A stretch of DNA of 64,000 nucleotides, from NCBI RefSeq assembly GCF_036017915.1, contig NZ_CP107929.1, positions 6,933,001-6,997,000 on the forward strand. Reading direction: 5' to 3'. The stretch comes from Micromonospora sp. NBC_00421 (GTDB lineage Bacteria > Actinomycetota > Actinomycetes > Mycobacteriales > Micromonosporaceae). The notes beneath the pieces were generated by a model that saw only the letters and a program-made list of their open reading frames with translations, ran no database searches and was not told the origin of the DNA. This document shows, piece by piece, positions 24,108 to 31,764 of this stretch. Numbering within the stretch: position 1 is the first letter of the stretch; each line of letters opens with the position of its first letter. The translations under genes were made by a program, and so were the position numbers.

Positions 24108-24140
24108 CCCGTCTCACCCAAGGGGCCGCTTCGACGGCAT

Positions 24141-24214
24141 GATCCACTCGGGTGGGCCGTTGTTGCGGTGTCCTGGCGACCGGTTACCGCAACACCGACC
24201 CAAGTGAGTGGATC
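24141..24214. repeat. Long imperfect palindrome, family B copy 1
   Basis: Left arm begins GATCCACTCGGGTGGGCCG and right arm ends AGTGAGTGGATC; the roughly 33-bp arms match at about 26 positions. The same sequence in better-paired form recurs at 24494-24568. The element lies just past the olsA-like gene and may terminate it. Confidence 0.75.
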
Positions 24215-24453: not shown

Positions 24454-24493
24454 CAGCGTTGGTTGTCCGCCCGGCCGGCATGGTCGCCAGCCT

Positions 24494-24568
24494 GACCCAC
24501 TCGCGTGGGCCGATGTTGCGGTATCCCGGGTGACTGGTTGCCGCAACATCGGCCCACGCGAGTGGATC
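24494..24568. repeat. Long palindrome, family B copy 2
   Basis: A perfect 25-bp inverted repeat, 24497-24521 against 24541-24565, with core GTGGGCCGATGTTGCGG and a 19-nt loop. It extends with one mismatch to GATC at the right end. Homologous to 24141-24214, in the same orientation. Confidence 0.85.
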
Positions 24569-24628
24569 AAGGTGGGGGCGAGGCGGGGGTGGGCATTGGC
24601 GGGTTTGCGACTCACGACAGTCTTGTTC

Positions 24629-24704: not shown

Positions 24705-25535
24705 ATGGCCACCTGGAAGGTCGACAGACCACAGCAGCTCACCATCGACGGGCCGGTCACCCGGCTCGACGTACGCCTGGTCACCGGGCGGCTCAACGTG
24801 GTCGGCACGGACGGCCCGGCCCGGGTCGACGTCACCCGGATCAGCAGCCGGCCGCTCATCGTCGAACACCGCGACGGTGTGCTCACGGTCGGGCACGAGC
24901 GCCACCCGCGCCGGCCCGGGCTCCTCTGGTGGCTCGGTCAGCTCGGTCGCCGGTTCCGCGCCGAGGTGTCCATCGCCGTCCCGGCCGACACGCTGGCCGA
25001 CCTGCACCTGATCGACGGCTCGCTGGTCGCCTCCGGCCTGGTCAACGACAGCACCGTGAACGTCACCTCCGGGCAGGTCACCCTGATGGGCCTGGCCGGG
25101 CGCACCAGGGCACGGGTCGTCTCCGGCCCGGTCGAGGCGCTCGGCGTGACCGGTGAGCTCAGCCTGGACACGGTCTCCGGCGAGGTGACCCTCGCCGAGA
25201 GCGCGGCCGGCCGGGTGCACGCCAACACCGTCTCCGGGGCGATCACCTGCGACCTGGACAATCCCCGGCGCAGCGAGATCCGGCTCACCACCATCTCCGG
25301 GCCGATCACCGTCCGGGTCCGCGAGGACAGCGACCTCGCCGTCCACCTGCACACCACCTCCGGCCGGATCACCAGCGGCTTCCCCCAGGTCAGCGGCGCA
25401 AGCGGGATCGGACCGGTCAAGGACAGCCACGGGGTGCTCGGCGCGGGCGAGGGTAAGCTCTGGGCGTCCGCGACCTCCGGCAGCATCGCGCTGCTCGCCC
25501 GGCCGGTGGACGACGACCAGGAGGAGCAGCCGTGA
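24705..25535 (+). CDS. DUF4097 family beta-helix protein
   Basis: A 276-residue protein of the DUF4097/putative-adhesin family. From about residue 90 it consists of repeated short strands with the family phrases VNVTSGQVTL, ARVVSGPVEA, LDTVSGEVTL, ANTVSGAITC, LTTISGPITV and HTTSGRITSG, each turn carrying a (T/V)SG step, so a right-handed beta-solenoid is expected. No signal peptide is seen, so despite the family name it is probably cytoplasmic. ATG 24705 has GAGGGGA upstream. Its stop overlaps the padR start (GTGA). DUF4097-PadR pairs are common in actinobacteria; the role is unknown. Confidence 0.85.
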   Translation: MATWKVDRPQQLTIDGPVTRLDVRLVTGRLNVVGTDGPARVDVTRISSRPLIVEHRDGVLTVGHERHPRRPGLLWWLGQLGRRFRAEVSIAVPADTLADLHLIDGSLVASGLVNDSTVNVTSGQVTLMGLAGRTRARVVSGPVEALGVTGELSLDTVSGEVTLAESAAGRVHANTVSGAITCDLDNPRRSEIRLTTISGPITVRVREDSDLAVHLHTTSGRITSGFPQVSGASGIGPVKDSHGVLGAGEGKLWASATSGSIALLARPVDDDQEEQP

Positions 25536-26173
25536 CCGCCGTGTTCAGTCACGGGCGGCTCCGGCTCTATCTGCTCCGGCTGCTCGACGACGGTCCCAAG
25601 CACGGCTACGAACTGATCCGGCTGCTGGAGGAGCGCTTCCTCGGCCTCTACGCCCCGAGCGCCGGCACCATCTATCCCCGGCTGCAACGCCTGGAGGCCG
25701 ACGGCCTGGTCACCCACACCGCCGCCGGTGGCCGCAAGGTCTACGAGATCACCGAGAGCGGTCGGGCCGAGTTGCGCCAACGCGCCGACGAGGTGACCAC
25801 CCTGGAGACCGACATCACCGCCTCGGTGGAGGATCTGTCCGCGCTGGCCGGGGAGATCCAGACCGAGGTACGCGGCTCGGTGCGCGACCTCAAGCGCGAA
25901 CTGCGCGAGGCCACCCGGCAGACCCGGCAGACCCGCTGGGACCGCCCGGTGCCCGGCCCGACACCCCGCCCGGCGCCCGGCTCGACATTCCGCCCGGCGG
26001 ACCCCGCTCAGGGCGATTCCCCCCTGCTGGCCGATTTCGACAAGCGATTGGCCGAGTTCACCGTCGAGGTCGGCGCGCTGGTCCGGGCCGGGCGGCTCAG
26101 CGACACCCAGCTCCGGACCGCGATCCGGGTCCTCGACGGCGCACTGGACGGGCTGCGCCGACTGCTGCGCTGA
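25532..26173 (+). CDS. PadR family transcriptional regulator
   Basis: A 213-residue regulator with an N-terminal winged helix: LRLYLLRLLDDGPKHGYELIRLLEERF, then APSAGTIYPRLQRLEADGLVTH (recognition helix and wing) and GRKVYEITESGRAEL. A coiled-coil region follows, interrupted by a Pro-rich spacer (about 130-160), and the last 45 residues form another helix pair. GTG start overlaps the DUF4097 stop. It most likely represses its own operon through the TATCGCG repeats at 24629-24648; the ligand is unknown. Confidence 0.9.
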   Translation: MTAVFSHGRLRLYLLRLLDDGPKHGYELIRLLEERFLGLYAPSAGTIYPRLQRLEADGLVTHTAAGGRKVYEITESGRAELRQRADEVTTLETDITASVEDLSALAGEIQTEVRGSVRDLKRELREATRQTRQTRWDRPVPGPTPRPAPGSTFRPADPAQGDSPLLADFDKRLAEFTVEVGALVRAGRLSDTQLRTAIRVLDGALDGLRRLLR

Positions 26174-26339
26174 CGGCCGCGGCGCGCTGACGTGGGCGGC
26201 GCGCTGACGTGGGCGGCGCGCTGGCGGCCGCGGCGACGTGCACGGTTGCGCTGATGGTTGCGCACGGCTGCCGCGTACGGCTGCGCAGGCTGGCGTGCTG
26301 GCGGCGGCCGGGCACGGCGGCGCGGGCCGGTTCACGGCT

Positions 26340-26367
26340 TCACAGGGTTTTTCCAGCGAGCATCCAG
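26340..26367 (+). promoter_or_regulatory. Candidate response-regulator operator upstream of its own gene
   Basis: Three hexamers at exact 11-bp steps: TCACAG (26340), TTCCAG (26351) and ATCCAG (26362). The last two, TTCCAG-N5-ATCCAG, recur at identical spacing in front of htrA (28688-28704), where a third box TTTCAG also lies 11 bp upstream. Direct repeats one helical turn apart are the standard layout for OmpR-family regulators. Confidence 0.6.
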
Positions 26368-26401
26368 CGCCGGCGCAGCGACGTCACGGATGATGGCCGG
26401 C

Positions 26402-27103
26402 ATGGCCGCTACCCATACCGAGGCGCGACTGCTCGTCGTCGAGGACGATCCCAACATCCTCGAACTACTCTCCGCCAGTCTCCGCTTCGCGGGGTTCGAC
26501 GTGGCGACCGCCACCAGTGGCAGCGCGGCCCTGCACGCGGCCAAGGACCACCGGCCCGACCTGGTGGTGCTCGACGTGATGCTGCCCGACCTGGACGGCT
26601 TCGAGGTCATCCGGATGCTCCGCGAGGGCGGCACGCGTACCCCTGTGGTGTTCCTGACCGCCCGGGACGCGACCGACGACAAGATCCGTGGGCTCACCCT
26701 GGGCGGCGACGACTACGTCACCAAGCCGTTCAGCCTGGAGGAGCTGACCGCCCGGATCCGGGCGGTGCTGCGGCGCACCGCGACCGGCGAGCAGGCCCCG
26801 TCCCGGCTCACCTTCGCCGACCTGGAGCTGGACGAGGAGACCCACGAGGTGCACCGGGCCGGGCAGCGGGTGCAGCTCTCGCCTACCGAGTTCAAGCTGC
26901 TGCGTTACCTGATGCTCAACGCCAACCGGGTGCTGTCCAAGGCGCAGATCCTCGACCACGTGTGGAACTACGACTTCCGGGGCGACGACAACATCGTCGA
27001 GTCCTACATCTCCTATCTGCGCCGGAAGGTGGACAACACCCAGCCCCGCCTGATCCACACCCTGCGCGGCGTGGGCTACGTCCTGCGCAAGCCGGCGGCG
27101 TGA
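26402..27103 (+). CDS. OmpR-family response regulator
   Basis: A 233-residue two-domain regulator. The receiver has the acidic pair in VVEDDPN, the phosphoacceptor Asp58 in VVLDVMLPDLDG, the switch Thr in FLTARDA and Lys in DYVTKPF. The C-terminal winged helix includes LSPTEFKLLRYLMLN, ILDHVWNYDFRGDDNIVESYISYLRRKVD and LIHTLRGVGYVLR, the OmpR/PhoB class. The kinase gene follows with a GTGA overlap, so they are a cognate pair. ATG 26402 is preferred; in-frame ATGs at 26390 and 26393 are possible and no start has a strong ribosome site. Probable targets are its own operon and the downstream htrA through shared operators. Confidence 0.93.
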   Translation: MAATHTEARLLVVEDDPNILELLSASLRFAGFDVATATSGSAALHAAKDHRPDLVVLDVMLPDLDGFEVIRMLREGGTRTPVVFLTARDATDDKIRGLTLGGDDYVTKPFSLEELTARIRAVLRRTATGEQAPSRLTFADLELDEETHEVHRAGQRVQLSPTEFKLLRYLMLNANRVLSKAQILDHVWNYDFRGDDNIVESYISYLRRKVDNTQPRLIHTLRGVGYVLRKPAA

Positions 27104-28653
27104 GCCCGCTCGACGAGGCGAAAGGGCGGATCCGGAGCGTCCCGCTGCGGGTCAAGCTGGTCGCGGCGGTGCTCACCCTGGTCGCCGTCGCCCTCGTGGT
27201 GATCAGCTCGCTGACCACGTACTTCCTGCGCGAGTACCTGATCGGGCAGGTCGACGGGGAGTTGCAGTCGGCAAGCGTCCAGGTCGGCCGGGCGCTGCCC
27301 AACCTGGAGAGCGGGCTGGCCAGGGCCACCCTGCCCACCGACTACGTGGTCGCCCTCGCCGACGGCGACGGCTCCCGGTTCATCGGGTACGACCCGGCCC
27401 TCGAACCGGACGACCTGCCACCGGTTCCCGCCGACGTGGCCGGATTCCGGGGTGACGAGGGCGATCCGTTCACGGTCCGGTCCCAGGACGGCCGGGAACG
27501 GTGGCGGATGCTCTACCGGGAACTCTCCGACGGCCGGGTGCTCGCCGTCGGACAGCACCTCACCGACGTCGACCTGGCCGTGAAGCGGTTGATCTGGATA
27601 GACATGCTGGTCGGTGGGGCGGTGCTGATCCTGCTCGCCTCGGTCGGCGCGGCCATCGTGCGCACCAGCCTGAAACCACTCGTGGAGATCGAACGCACCG
27701 CCGCCGCGATCGCCGGTGGCGATCTGACCCGCCGGGTGCCCGACCCGGAGGAGGGGCAGGAGTGCGCCACCTCCGAGCTGGGCCGGCTCTCCCGGGCGCT
27801 GAACGCGATGCTGGCCCAGATCGAGGCCGCCTTCACCGCCCGCGCCGCCTCGGAGATGGCCGCCCGTACGGCGGAGGCGGGTGCCCGGGACGCGGCGCAC
27901 GCCGCGCTGGCGTCCGAGGCCCGCGCCCGCCGGTCGGAGGAGCGGATGCGGCAGTTCGTCGCGGACGCCTCGCACGAGCTGCGGACCCCGCTGACCACCA
28001 TCCGGGGCTTCGCCGAGCTGTACCGGCAGGGGGCGGCCCGCGCCCCGGAACAGACCGCCGACCTGCTGCGCCGCATCGAGGACGAGGCGGCCCGGATGGG
28101 GCTGCTCGTGGAGGACCTGCTGCTGCTGGCCCGGCTGGACCGGGAGCGCCCGCTGTCGCTGGCCCCGGTGGAGCTGCCGGTGCTCGCCTCAGAGGCGGTC
28201 GAGGCCGCCCGGGTGGTCGCCCCGGAGCGGCGCATCGAGCTGGAGATCGCTCCGGGCTCCGGCCCGCTCGTGGTGTACGCCGACGACGCCCGCCTGCGGC
28301 AGGTGATCGGCAACCTGATGACCAACGCGCTTACCCACACCCCGCCGGAGGCGTCGGTGACCCTGCGGCTGCGCTCCGAGACCGGCAACCTGGCCGTGGT
28401 GGAGGTGGCGGACACCGGCCCGGGGCTCGCCCCGGAGCAGGCCGAGCGGGTCTTCGAACGGTTCTACCGGGCCGACGCGGCCCGGACCCGCCGGGCCAGC
28501 GGGATCACCAGCACCGGCCTGGGGCTGGCCATCGTCGCCGCGCTGGTCACCGCCCACCAGGGCACGGTCGAGGTGGACGGGACGCCTGGGGGCGGGGCGA
28601 CCTTCCGGGTCCGGCTGCCGCTGCTGCCCGAGCCCGACGGCGACGTGGAGTGA
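27100..28653 (+). CDS. Sensor histidine kinase
   Basis: A 517-residue membrane kinase. TM1 about 19-42, an extracytoplasmic sensor of roughly 120 residues, TM2 about 165-187, HAMP to about 245, an Ala/Arg/Glu-rich helical linker (245-282), then HisKA with the phosphorylated His292 in DASHELRTPLTTIRGFAELY, and HATPase_c with NLMTNALTH (N-box), DTGPGLAPEQ (G1) and TGLGLAIV (G2). The sensor loop is acidic and has no recognised ligand domain. GTG start at 27100 overlaps the response-regulator stop. Layout and downstream HtrA resemble envelope-stress systems such as MprAB, but the inducing signal is unknown. Confidence 0.93.
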   Translation: MSPLDEAKGRIRSVPLRVKLVAAVLTLVAVALVVISSLTTYFLREYLIGQVDGELQSASVQVGRALPNLESGLARATLPTDYVVALADGDGSRFIGYDPALEPDDLPPVPADVAGFRGDEGDPFTVRSQDGRERWRMLYRELSDGRVLAVGQHLTDVDLAVKRLIWIDMLVGGAVLILLASVGAAIVRTSLKPLVEIERTAAAIAGGDLTRRVPDPEEGQECATSELGRLSRALNAMLAQIEAAFTARAASEMAARTAEAGARDAAHAALASEARARRSEERMRQFVADASHELRTPLTTIRGFAELYRQGAARAPEQTADLLRRIEDEAARMGLLVEDLLLLARLDRERPLSLAPVELPVLASEAVEAARVVAPERRIELEIAPGSGPLVVYADDARLRQVIGNLMTNALTHTPPEASVTLRLRSETGNLAVVEVADTGPGLAPEQAERVFERFYRADAARTRRASGITSTGLGLAIVAALVTAHQGTVEVDGTPGGGATFRVRLPLLPEPDGDVE

Positions 28654-28676
28654 TGCTCCACCGGTCCCGGTGTGAC

Positions 28677-28704
28677 TTTCAGAAAACTTCCAGGCAGGAT
28701 CCAG
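28677..28704 (+). promoter_or_regulatory. Candidate response-regulator operator upstream of htrA
   Basis: Boxes TTTCAG (28677), TTCCAG (28688) and ATCCAG (28699) at exact 11-bp steps, matching the arrangement at 26340-26367. It sits 28 bp before the htrA start codon and just past the kinase stop, in a short patch that is clearly less GC-rich. Confidence 0.65.
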
Positions 28705-28731
28705 GGTGGTGACAGTGCCACGGGGAAAACT

Positions 28732-30453
28732 ATGGGCATGACCGAGTTCGAGACCGACCCGCAGCGTCGGCCGGCTGCCACCGACGCCGAGCCGTCGCAC
28801 CCCTCCGCCGAGCCGTCCCGCGTCGAGCGCGGCGAGTCCGACACCACCGCCGCTCCGGGCGACGCCACCGCCGCTCCGGGCGACACCGCCGGCGCCGCGG
28901 GGGAGCCGGCCGGCACGCCAAACCCCGGATCGTCGTACGGGCCACCGTCGTCGCCGTACGCGCAACCCTCCGCCACCCCGTACCCGCAGGCTGCGTACCA
29001 GTCCGGTGCGTCCGCCGGCGACCAGGCGTACCGGCCCGGCTATCCGGCGTCCGGCTACCCGGGCTACCCGCAGGCGGGCCAGTACCCGACGGCCGGTTAC
29101 CCACAGTCCGGCCCGCAGCAGCCCGGCCCGCAGCAGCCCGGGTGGGCCGCCGGTCATCCGGGCCAGCAGCAGCACCCCGGCGCACCGGGTCAGCCCGGTG
29201 TGGGCGCCCCCTCTGCCGGTTATCCGGGCCAGCCCGGTTCCGCCGGCCCGGGTCAGCCCGGTGGCGGTTACCCGGGCCAGCACGCCCTGGCCGGAGCGGG
29301 CCAGCCGTCTGCCGGCTACCCGGGGCAGACCGGCCCGGGTGGCCCGCAGCACCCCGGCCAGCCGGTCCCGCCGTGGGCGTCGGCCCCGGGGCCGCAGGCC
29401 GGCAAGGTGGCCAAGTTCGTCGGTGCCGGGATCGCGGTCTTCGCCCTGATGCTCGGCTCCGGCGTGGCCGGCGGCGCGCTCGCCCTGGCGGTCGACGGCG
29501 ACCGGGGGGGCATCACCCGCACCTATTCGGCCGCGCCGGTCATCGACAGCGCCGACCTGCCCAAGATCGCGGCGTCGGTGCAGGACAGTGTGGTCTCCAT
29601 CCTCACCGACAACGGTGAGGGTTCGGGCGTGATCCTCAGTGCCGACGGCTTCGTGCTGACCAACAACCACGTCGTCGCGTCCGCCTCCGGCGACACCGTC
29701 CGGGTGGTCTTCGCCAACGGCAAGACCGCCTCGGCCAAGATCGTCGGCACCGATCCGAAGACCGACCTCGCGGTGGTCCAGACCAGCGGCGTCGACAACC
29801 TCAAGGCGGCGAAGTTCGGCGACAGCGACGCCATGCAGGTGGGCGACCAGGTGCTCGCCCTGGGCAGCCCGCTCGGCCTCCAGGGCTCGGTGACCGCCGG
29901 CATCCTCAGCGCCCGGGACCGCACCATCCGGGCCGGCAGCGAAGACAGCCCGCAGCAGGCCCCGCAGGGTGGTGCCAGCTCGATCTCCGGCCTGCTCCAG
30001 ACCGACGCCCCGATCAACCCGGGCAACTCCGGGGGCGCGCTTGTCAACACCCGCGGCGAGGTGATCGGCATCAACACCGCCATCGCCACCGCCGGGCAGG
30101 GCAGCACCGGCAACATCGGTGTCGGCTTCGCCATCCCGAGCAACAAGGCCAAGGACGTCGCCGAGAAGCTCCAGCGGGGCGAGAAGATCAGCCATCCGTC
30201 CCTCGGCGTCAGCGTCAACGCGGCCGAGGACGGCGGTGCCCTGGTCGCCGCGGTCGCCGGTGGCAGCGCCGCCGAGAAGGCCGGGATCCAGCGGGGTGAC
30301 GTGATCACCAGGTTCGGGGACAAGGCGATCAACGACTCCAACGACCTCGTCGGCGCGGTGCAGGCCGGCAAGGTCGGCGACCGGGTCCAGGTGACCTACA
30401 AGCGAAATGGCACCGAGGCGACGGCAACCGTCACGCTCGCCGAGACGTCATAG
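28732..30453 (+). CDS. HtrA-like S1C serine protease with PDZ domain
   Basis: A 573-residue membrane-anchored protease. The cytoplasmic N-terminus (about 1-226) is disordered and rich in Gly, Pro, Tyr and Gln, with repeated GYPGQ/GQPG units. One membrane helix (about 228-253) precedes a trypsin-like domain with triad His313 (TNNHVV), Asp345 (KTDLAVV) and Ser433 (NPGNSGGALV), then a single PDZ domain (HPSLGVSVNAAEDGGALV onward). It degrades or refolds damaged proteins outside the membrane. ATG 28732 with GGGG six bases upstream is preferred over ATG 28738. It follows a two-component system whose likely operator lies directly in front of it. Confidence 0.92.
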   Translation: MGMTEFETDPQRRPAATDAEPSHPSAEPSRVERGESDTTAAPGDATAAPGDTAGAAGEPAGTPNPGSSYGPPSSPYAQPSATPYPQAAYQSGASAGDQAYRPGYPASGYPGYPQAGQYPTAGYPQSGPQQPGPQQPGWAAGHPGQQQHPGAPGQPGVGAPSAGYPGQPGSAGPGQPGGGYPGQHALAGAGQPSAGYPGQTGPGGPQHPGQPVPPWASAPGPQAGKVAKFVGAGIAVFALMLGSGVAGGALALAVDGDRGGITRTYSAAPVIDSADLPKIAASVQDSVVSILTDNGEGSGVILSADGFVLTNNHVVASASGDTVRVVFANGKTASAKIVGTDPKTDLAVVQTSGVDNLKAAKFGDSDAMQVGDQVLALGSPLGLQGSVTAGILSARDRTIRAGSEDSPQQAPQGGASSISGLLQTDAPINPGNSGGALVNTRGEVIGINTAIATAGQGSTGNIGVGFAIPSNKAKDVAEKLQRGEKISHPSLGVSVNAAEDGGALVAAVAGGSAAEKAGIQRGDVITRFGDKAINDSNDLVGAVQAGKVGDRVQVTYKRNGTEATATVTLAETS

Positions 30454-30474
30454 CAATCAGACCTGCCTCCTCCG

Positions 30475-30523
30475 GGGCGGCGGGCGGCGGAGCCAAGGGG
30501 GTTGGCTCCGTCGCCCGCCGCCC
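30475..30523 (+). terminator. Terminator of htrA
   Basis: A 22-bp GC stem with one mismatch: 30475-30496 (GGGCGGCGGGCGGCGGAGCC then AA) pairs with 30502-30523, loop GGGGG, followed by TTCTTCC. It begins 21 bp after the htrA stop. Confidence 0.85.
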
Positions 30524-30648
30524 TTCTTCCTGCCCGGGACGCTCGCCCGGCCGGGTGCGTTTGACCTCCCGGCCGAGGGGAAACCGCCGCTGATCCCGCT
30601 TACCGGGCAGCCGCCGATCCCGCTCATCCGGACAACGGGGGAGGATCC

Positions 30649-31764
30649 GTGACCGTGACCCACCGTCCGTCGGAACACCCGCCGTCCGGGCCGCCGCTGC
30701 GGATCGCGATGCTGGTCCCGCCCTGGCTGTCGGTGCCGCCCCCCGGGTACGGCGGGCTGGAACAGGTCGTGCACGGGCTGGTGGACGCGCTGGTCGGGCA
30801 CGGTCACGAGGTGACCCTCTTCGGTGCCGGCCGGCAGCACGGGACGGCCGCCGGCTTCGTCTCCACCATCGACGAGTTGCAGTACGACCGGCTGGGCGAG
30901 TCGCTGCCCGAGCTGGCCCACCTGGCGCGGGCCAAGCAGTTGATCTCCGCCGCCGACTTCGACGTGATCCACGATCACACCACGATCGGGCCGCTGGTCG
31001 CCGGCCGTCGGGCGGTGCCCACCGTGGCCACCGTCCACGGCAACCCGGTCGGGGAGTACGGGACGGTGCTCGGTGACACCGACCACGGGGTGGGCCTGGT
31101 GGCGATCTCGCACGCCCAACGTCGGGCGAACCCCGGCCTGCCCTGGGTGGGTACGGTGCACAACGCGCTCGACGGCCGGGACGTGCCCGCCAAACGGGAA
31201 CCCGGCCGGGGACCGGTGCTCTGGCTGGCCCGGTTCAGCCCCGACAAGGGCCCCGACCTGGCGATCCGGGCCTGTCGGGCGGCCGGCCTGCCGCTCACCC
31301 TGGCCGGCAAGTGCAACGAGTCCGCCGAGCGCCGCCACTTCGCCGAGGTGGTCCAGCCGATGCTCGGCGAGGACGTCAACGTGATCATGAACGCCGGCCG
31401 GGAGGAGACGCTGCGGCTGCTTGTCGACGCCCGCTGTCTGATCATGCCGATCCAGTGGGAGGAACCGTTCGGCATGGTGATGGTGGAGGCCATGGCGACC
31501 GGCACCCCGGTGGTGGCGTTGCGTCGGGGCGCGGTGCCGGAAGTGGTGGTCGACGGGGTGACCGGGCTGATCTGCGACGGTGCCGGGGAGTTGCCGGCGG
31601 CGATGCGCGAGGTGGTCCGGATCGACCCGGCGGCCTGCGTCGCGCACGTGGCCCGGAACTTCTCCACCGAGCGGATGGCGCGCGGCTACGAGGCGGTCTA
31701 CCGCAGCGTCGTGCTCGGCACGACCCCGCCCCTGCACCGGCCCGTGCCGATCCACTCCCACTGA
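30649..31764 (+). CDS. Family 4 glycosyltransferase
   Basis: A 371-residue GT-B fold retaining glycosyltransferase. The N-terminal domain has IAMLVPPWLSVPPPGYGGLEQVVHGLVDAL, the acceptor-side GYGGxE motif of GT4; the C-terminal domain has LWLARFSPDKGPDLAIRA, AGKCNE and the donor-binding block MPIQWEEPFGMVMVEAMATGTPVVALRRGAVPEVV with the E-x7-E motif. It resembles cytosolic GT4 enzymes that glycosylate lipids or small molecules; donor and acceptor are unknown. GTG start 30649 follows GGAGGATCC. It stands alone and is convergent with the kinase gene. Its last codons and stop are partly duplicated 74 bp downstream. Confidence 0.88.
   Translation: MTVTHRPSEHPPSGPPLRIAMLVPPWLSVPPPGYGGLEQVVHGLVDALVGHGHEVTLFGAGRQHGTAAGFVSTIDELQYDRLGESLPELAHLARAKQLISAADFDVIHDHTTIGPLVAGRRAVPTVATVHGNPVGEYGTVLGDTDHGVGLVAISHAQRRANPGLPWVGTVHNALDGRDVPAKREPGRGPVLWLARFSPDKGPDLAIRACRAAGLPLTLAGKCNESAERRHFAEVVQPMLGEDVNVIMNAGREETLRLLVDARCLIMPIQWEEPFGMVMVEAMATGTPVVALRRGAVPEVVVDGVTGLICDGAGELPAAMREVVRIDPAACVAHVARNFSTERMARGYEAVYRSVVLGTTPPLHRPVPIHSH

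Follow-up and report, generated by a model that had tools for sequence, protein, structure and literature searches.

We analysed a stretch of 64,000 nucleotides from Micromonospora sp. NBC_00421 (contig NZ_CP107929.1, positions 6,933,001 to 6,997,000 of the forward strand; here called the window), in which genes for an OmpR-family response regulator, a sensor histidine kinase and an HtrA/DegP-type serine protease follow one another on the same strand (Table 1). The regulator and kinase genes share a 4-nt overlap. Direct repeats at 11-bp steps stand in front of the regulator gene and again in front of htrA, and an earlier note, made from the letters of this DNA, had predicted from them that the two-component system controls both itself and the protease. 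This prediction is supported by the comparative conservation of the repeats in Micromonosporaceae and by the placement of the regulator in the clade of Mycobacterium tuberculosis PhoP, both described below.

Table 1. Features of the regulator-kinase-htrA locus, in window positions
Feature	Positions	Strand	Evidence
Four-box operator before regulator gene	26340-26378	+	11-bp steps; family conservation
Predicted -10 hexamer GATGAT (ANNNT) before regulator gene	26389-26394	+	starts 10 bp past box 4
Response regulator, OmpR-family, PhoP clade	26402-27103	+	PF00072, PF00486; nearest solved structure PhoP; tree
Sensor histidine kinase, PhoR-type	27100-28653	+	HAMP, HisKA, HATPase_c
Four-box operator before htrA	28677-28715	+	11-bp steps; family conservation
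Predicted -10 hexamer AAAACT (ANNNT) before htrA	28726-28731	+	starts 10 bp past box 4
HtrA/DegP-type serine protease with PDZ domain	28738-30453	+	PF13365, PF13180
Terminator-like hairpin after htrA	30476-30522	+	2 overlapping matches, shuffle mean 1.1

The boxes before the regulator gene read TCACAG (26340), TTCCAG (26351), ATCCAG (26362) and GCGCAG (26373). Those before htrA read TTTCAG (28677), TTCCAG (28688), ATCCAG (28699) and TGACAG (28710). The first three boxes of each array had been described in the earlier note, and all six were found at the positions given there, on the forward strand and at 11-bp steps; the fourth boxes and the -10 hexamers beyond them had been overlooked. The two operators had also been called identical, which is an overstatement: boxes 2 and 3 are the same in both, but there are two base differences in box 1 and further ones in the spacers. 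We rejected the idea that the operator stands at an equal distance from the start in both promoters, since the gaps between box 3 and the start are 34 nt and 33 nt, respectively.

In both promoters the start codon follows the hexamer by 6-7 nt, which is the geometry of a class II leaderless promoter. A gap of 10 bp to the -10 is also a feature of the pho-box promoters of PhoB. The predicted leaderless start of the regulator is the ATG at 26402; two more ATGs of the same frame, at 26390 and 26393, share bases with the -10. For htrA, the start chosen in the earlier note (ATG 28732) is in frame, but the relatives conserve a second in-frame ATG at 28738, which is the predicted leaderless start. 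A scan of 26150-30700 found no promoter of the TTGACA/TATAAT type (shuffles 0.1), as expected if the regulator takes the place of the -35. The whole module of boxes, -10 and nearby start has the appearance of a leaderless promoter that depends on an activator.

The genome searched for further copies has 7,231,838 bases, including the window. The three-box pattern of the earlier note, with up to 3 mismatches, matched twice in the window (0.00 expected from 100 shuffles), and the same two sites were its only matches in the whole genome; the reversed control pattern matched 3 times genome-wide at this tolerance, a caveat on its looseness. Three WYHCAG boxes at 11-bp steps without mismatch occur only at the two window sites, and the control gave none. 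With 1 mismatch there were 4 extra matches, one of them being the htrA array in a register displaced by one box, and because the control gave 3 we claim nothing more from this search. The possibility that the arrays belong to many genomic copies was rejected, as the genome-wide pattern finds the two window sites only. Two other HtrA-like genes of this genome (L208 and L209) showed no three-box array in the stretches examined. When the four boxes and the -10 were searched together without mismatch, a third site appeared 5' of the gene for a paralogous regulator, here called RR2. At 1 mismatch this pattern gave 6 extra sites compared to 3 control matches in all; in view of the control matches, and because some of the 6 sites are simple tandem repeats, a larger regulon was not accepted and no further target is claimed.

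The prediction required that the motif be kept in relatives, and in the search of related genomes it was found before the orthologous regulator and htrA genes. Micromonosporaceae are an actinomycete family with antibiotic producers. A search of 150 of their genomes with the window regulator gave matches in 148 at E<=1e-70, and one locus each from 60 of these was analysed together with the window, 61 loci in total (L171 and L172 hold the second-best regulator copies of their genomes). An htrA gene is present in 54 loci, the window included. In the other 7 loci, in which no htrA lies downstream, the available sequence stops before htrA could show (L148, L162 and L164), htrA is elsewhere in the genome (L160) or the regulators are more divergent (L169, L171 and L172). 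We counted an array when its score was at least 10, and a full module when the array was accompanied by the hexamer and, 6-7 nt further on, by a start codon; in L131 hexamer and start codon were read by eye. The regulator array was found in 59 of 61 loci and the full regulator module in 46, while the htrA array was found in 50 of 54 loci and the full htrA module in 49. Mononucleotide shuffles reached the same score in 10 of 1220 regulator regions and 30 of 1080 htrA regions, and kinase-coding windows in 0 of 215. In L163, the htrA array and the hexamer are present and the start codon is not at the expected place. A separate genus search found a strict three-box site in 90 of 121 genomes. Each of the 30 sites that were fetched is located upstream of this regulator gene or downstream of this kinase gene; in two of them (L198 and L201) the contig ends and htrA is not in view.

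The 11-bp step was also evident from triplet counts. Within 150 bases upstream of the regulator gene, CAG pairs 11 bp apart occur 159 times in 61 regions, compared to a mean of 4.66 for 38 other distances, and over the 150 bases that begin at the kinase stop they occur 98 times in 54 regions, compared to 4.29. Weaker 11-bp peaks were seen with AGC (45 vs. 4.18) and CCA (16 vs. 2.16) before the regulator and with CCA (15 vs. 3.08) in the htrA region, which is expected because both triplets overlap the box. CTG and GAC, two of the four other triplets tried, gave no 11-bp peak. When 49 htrA arrays were aligned on box 3, the next 11-bp step had A in 47 and G in 47, and the ANNNT hexamer 10 bp later had A in 49 and T in 47. 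Box 1 opens with T in 83% of 56 regulator arrays and in 93% of 48 htrA arrays. The proteins read M-T/S/N-E/D from the predicted start codon in nearly all aligned loci. Because the N-terminus is conserved from this codon and the -10 lies 6-7 nt ahead, a leaderless start is likely. For comparison, in M. smegmatis ANNNT lies at -13 to -6 in 79% of mapped promoters and 24% of transcripts are leaderless (excerpt of PMC6448022).

Arrays were also found at htrA genes away from the regulator. The pattern of four boxes and -10 matched 334 times in 141 of the 150 family genomes, with at least 2 matches in 118 of them, whereas its control matched 12 times in 12 genomes. In the four genomes of genus g12 (G012, G050, G070 and G086; L386-L389), an array-bearing htrA lies 6-23 kb from the regulator. 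G012 (L160), the one of the four that was checked in this respect, has no htrA behind the kinase, and its HtrA ATG lies 6 nt after the hexamer. In G050 and G086 the HtrA frame opens 35 and 74 nt downstream, respectively, well past the predicted start, and no uninterrupted frame could be read in G070. In G033, an HtrA gene on a separate short contig carries the module (L383). In genus g18, the module also stands before a second HtrA-like gene, whose ATG lies 6 nt past the hexamer (L391 and L392; also L368, L372 and L373); this gene was recognized by BLAST in G088 and G072 (L391 and L392) and by likeness of the N-terminus alone in G018 and G101 (L372 and L373). Some sites elsewhere may be due to chance: an array with -10 placed 49 nt before an HtpX-like gene, named by eye, in G043 (L390, a single case), a single site at a secreted-looking protein in G061, and sites without a clear start in genus g11.

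The regulator has the PF00072 and PF00486 domains and is thus of the OmpR type, as the earlier note had stated without naming its clade. Its best match among solved structures is M. tuberculosis PhoP with 328.7 bits, the next being PrrA with 199.6. In the M. colombiense genome, PhoP is the best match (66%, 328 bits), whereas the MprA-like regulator adjoining a PepD-like gene reaches 51% and 216 bits. In a regulator tree of 102 rows (row P2_L247 is a mis-read sequence whose very long branch is meaningless), the window regulator groups with mycobacterial PhoP from L010, L012 and L014 (27 rows, 99/91; 57 rows, 100/100). The L010 regulator is PhoP by 486 bits to 3r0j. MprA-like and CssR-like rows, named by their HtrA- or PepD-like neighbours, form a separate group (100/100). 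The kinase is 46% identical to the L010 kinase, which stands beside PhoP, vs. 29% to the MprB-like kinase of L233. We took the base-contacting residues of PhoP from an excerpt of PMC4832192 and matched them by alignment: N212, E215, S216, Y217 and Y220 are identical and V213 is replaced by Ile (5/6). Sequence comparison places the regulator and its kinase in the PhoP/PhoR clade rather than with MprAB or CssRS, even though the genes are arranged like mprA-mprB-pepD. An assignment as MprA or CssR orthologue was rejected on identity, kinase match and tree.

PhoP of M. tuberculosis recognizes 7-bp motifs with a strict 4-bp spacer, on which it dimerizes head to tail, and its affinity is higher for three or four motifs in tandem than for two (excerpt of PMC4832192). 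These are direct repeats at 11-bp steps, the spacing that the earlier note gave for OmpR-family proteins, and the predicted sites of the window have the same spacing. The window system resembles M. tuberculosis PhoPR in its clade, its near-identical recognition helix, the motif TCACAGC with 4-bp spacer, and tandem binding as predicted here (excerpt of PMC4832192). Unlike the window, the stretches examined around the mycobacterial PhoP genes of L010, L012 and L014 contain no htrA. Also, 87 genes have been proposed to belong to the M. tuberculosis PhoP regulon (excerpt of PMC3413638), whereas here two such sites stand out. The published sites at M. tuberculosis phoP are located downstream of +1, and the PhoP sites at lipF and pks2 overlap the -35 (excerpt of PMC3413638).

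The succession of regulator, kinase and HtrA-type protease is shared with MprAB-PepD, where pepD is directly regulated by MprAB (excerpt of PMC3062566). In the MprA-like loci L233, L234 and L236, TCTCAG-N5-TCTCAG precedes both the regulator and the protease gene, and in L235 it precedes the regulator only. By eye, an ANNNT hexamer lies 10 bp after the pair in L233, L234 and L236. However, MprA belongs to another clade and its loci have two TCTCAG boxes, not four. In C. glutamicum, MprA binds its own promoter and the htrA promoter through the motif TKTTAAGAAM, which is unlike the window boxes (excerpt of PMC12113857). CssRS/CutRS are two-component systems controlling htrA-family genes in Streptomyces secretion stress, with the gene order htrB-cssR-cssS, the CutR site TAWATAAA and two conserved cysteines in the CutS/CssS sensors (excerpt of PMC12802291). 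The window differs in its gene order, and its kinase has no cysteine in the sensor part and only Cys222. Between the window regulator and its CssR-like counterpart in S. griseofuscus, the identity is 47-48%. In E. coli PhoB pho-box promoters tandem repeats replace the -35 ahead of the -10 (excerpt of PMC3413638), as the window arrays are predicted to do, but the four boxes, the probable leaderless start and the clade are different. A circuit of a two-component system and HtrA is already known from MprAB-PepD and CssRS-HtrB, which the earlier note did not remark, and the wiring of a PhoP-clade system to htrA via four-box promoters appears to be a new variant. No description of PhoPR control of htrA in Micromonosporaceae was found by title and abstract opening in a literature search that omits most subscription journals.

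Among 79 named tree rows there are 46 PhoP-clade regulator loci, of which 36 have at least 2 boxes and 20 have the box/-10/start geometry, compared to 1 of 2300 shuffles; one of the 20 may have its start by chance (L008) and another is Micromonospora (L003). This geometry was not found in the mycobacterial loci L010, L012 and L014. Among 40 class-level PhoP-clade loci outside Micromonosporaceae, htrA lies behind the kinase in 6 (L301, L313, L317, L320, L325 and L333), and arrays with a score of at least 10 stand between kinase and htrA in 4 of them (L301, L317, L320 and L325). Five of the 80 named loci (L003, L004, L006, L025 and L066) have htrA after the kinase. Boxes precede htrA in Actinoallomurus L004 and Phycicoccus L006, and no three-box array was seen before htrA in Brevibacterium L025 and L066. 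The linkage to htrA is mostly a trait of Micromonosporaceae.

We consider it likely that the regulator, once phosphorylated, occupies both arrays and switches on htrA as well as its own operon. We propose the following course of events. A signal from the cell envelope would activate the kinase, and the phosphorylated regulator would lie head to tail on the four 11-bp repeats. Since the gap between box 4 and the -10 is 10 bp, the regulator would occupy the place of the -35 and recruit RNA polymerase there (class II activation). Transcription of its own operon would be raised, giving positive feedback, and that of htrA would be raised too, and the HtrA product would refold or degrade damaged exported proteins. 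For both mRNAs, the A of the start codon is probably the first nucleotide.

Several points weigh against this course of events. The sign of control need not be positive, because the autoregulatory sites of M. tuberculosis phoP lie downstream of +1 (excerpt of PMC3413638). Transcription of htrA may also come from read-through of the regulator operon. The htrA array is missing in 4 of 54 loci (L153, L167, L168 and L170), the regulator array is missing in 2 of 61 (L163 and L170) and the full regulator module in 13 more. No htrA lies downstream in 34 of the 40 class-level loci outside the family. Since RR2 has its own four-box module in the same genome, cross-binding is possible.

If the arrays were bound by the regulator but served mainly as repressor sites, there would be autorepression and htrA would be repressed until the signal arrives. 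The position of the M. tuberculosis phoP sites fits this, as does the repression of htrB by CutR in Streptomyces (excerpt of PMC12802291). We regard it as unlikely, because 49 of 54 htrA promoters and 46 of 61 regulator promoters have arrays ending 10 bp upstream of the -10, the place of a class II activator, the same geometry recurs in the 20 PhoP-clade promoters of named actinobacteria, and no -35-type promoter was found in 26150-30700. It is less likely still that one or both arrays are bound mainly by another OmpR-family regulator such as RR2, in which case the circuit would not be closed. RR2 (G000:C1:1686351) is an OmpR-type regulator 61.5% identical to the window regulator, with the third four-box and -10 module in front of it (G000:C1:1686293-1686344; L393 and L395), and a module of the same geometry was found in 28 of the 29 RR2 loci matched in a search of 31 genus genomes, under the looser rule that at least 3 of 4 boxes end in AG. 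Its boxes, however, are of GCACAG/ACACAG flavour, and the first ones read (G/A/C)(C/T)ACAG, with none of 28 scored opening with T, in contrast to the prevalent T in the first box of regulator and htrA arrays. At PhoP position 216 the window regulator keeps Ser whereas RR2 has Leu. Because the boxes differ in flavour, we take the RR2 module to be its own site.

A plain orthologue of MprAB-PepD or CssRS-HtrB would explain the gene order (mprA-mprB-pepD; excerpt of PMC3062566), and the paired TCTCAG boxes of the MprA-like loci recall the arrays. With the M. colombiense PhoP so much closer than its MprA-like regulator, the separate tree group, and a kinase closer to PhoR than to MprB-like proteins, we think this very improbable. 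It is true that the boxes are short, that the score is reached in 30 of 1080 shuffled htrA regions and that the reversed control has 3 matches at 3 mismatches. Nevertheless, a chance or low-complexity repeat without regulatory role is hardly credible, given the conservation, the exact spacing and position, and the retention of the array at htrA genes away from the operon.

Activation of both promoters by the PhoP-clade regulator would provide a precise model for a stress-circuit promoter: four boxes, 10 bp, ANNNT and the start codon. It would give a regulator of the M. tuberculosis PhoP clade a probable target in envelope proteostasis and offer a non-pathogen setting for PhoP-type activation. 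HtrA would then be wired to two different regulator clades with a common operator grammar. It is a tentative possibility, rather doubtful at present, that PhoP/PhoR was ancestrally a self-activating envelope-quality circuit and that the control of htrA passed later, toward mycobacteria, to the paralogous MprAB. The ancestral circuit would have had tandem boxes, no -35, and leaderless regulator and htrA genes, and the handover with the same 11-bp CAG operator grammar would have left PhoPR free for other regulons. We place lower odds on it because most PhoP-clade loci outside the family have no htrA downstream, which also fits late gain. If true, HtrA would have changed masters between sister regulators without new operator architecture.

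The best NCBIfam match of the HtrA protein is TIGR02037 with 279 bits, under its 416-bit cut-off. Its N-terminal part (window 28738-29430) is long and rich in Pro, Gly and Gln and precedes a hydrophobic segment. The terminator-like hairpin after htrA is weak evidence, because its two overlapping matches compare with a shuffle mean of 1.1. Among named regulators, the one of Micromonospora sp. RHAY321 is closest (98%). Directly 5' of the regulator operon (window 24705-26173) are a DUF4097 gene, weakly LiaG-like, and then a gene for a PadR-family regulator. Further 5' there are two imperfect palindromes that resemble each other at a distance of about 353 bp (window 24131-24214 and 24475-24587), with direct repeats of 46 nt and 43 nt at 83% and 81%, respectively.

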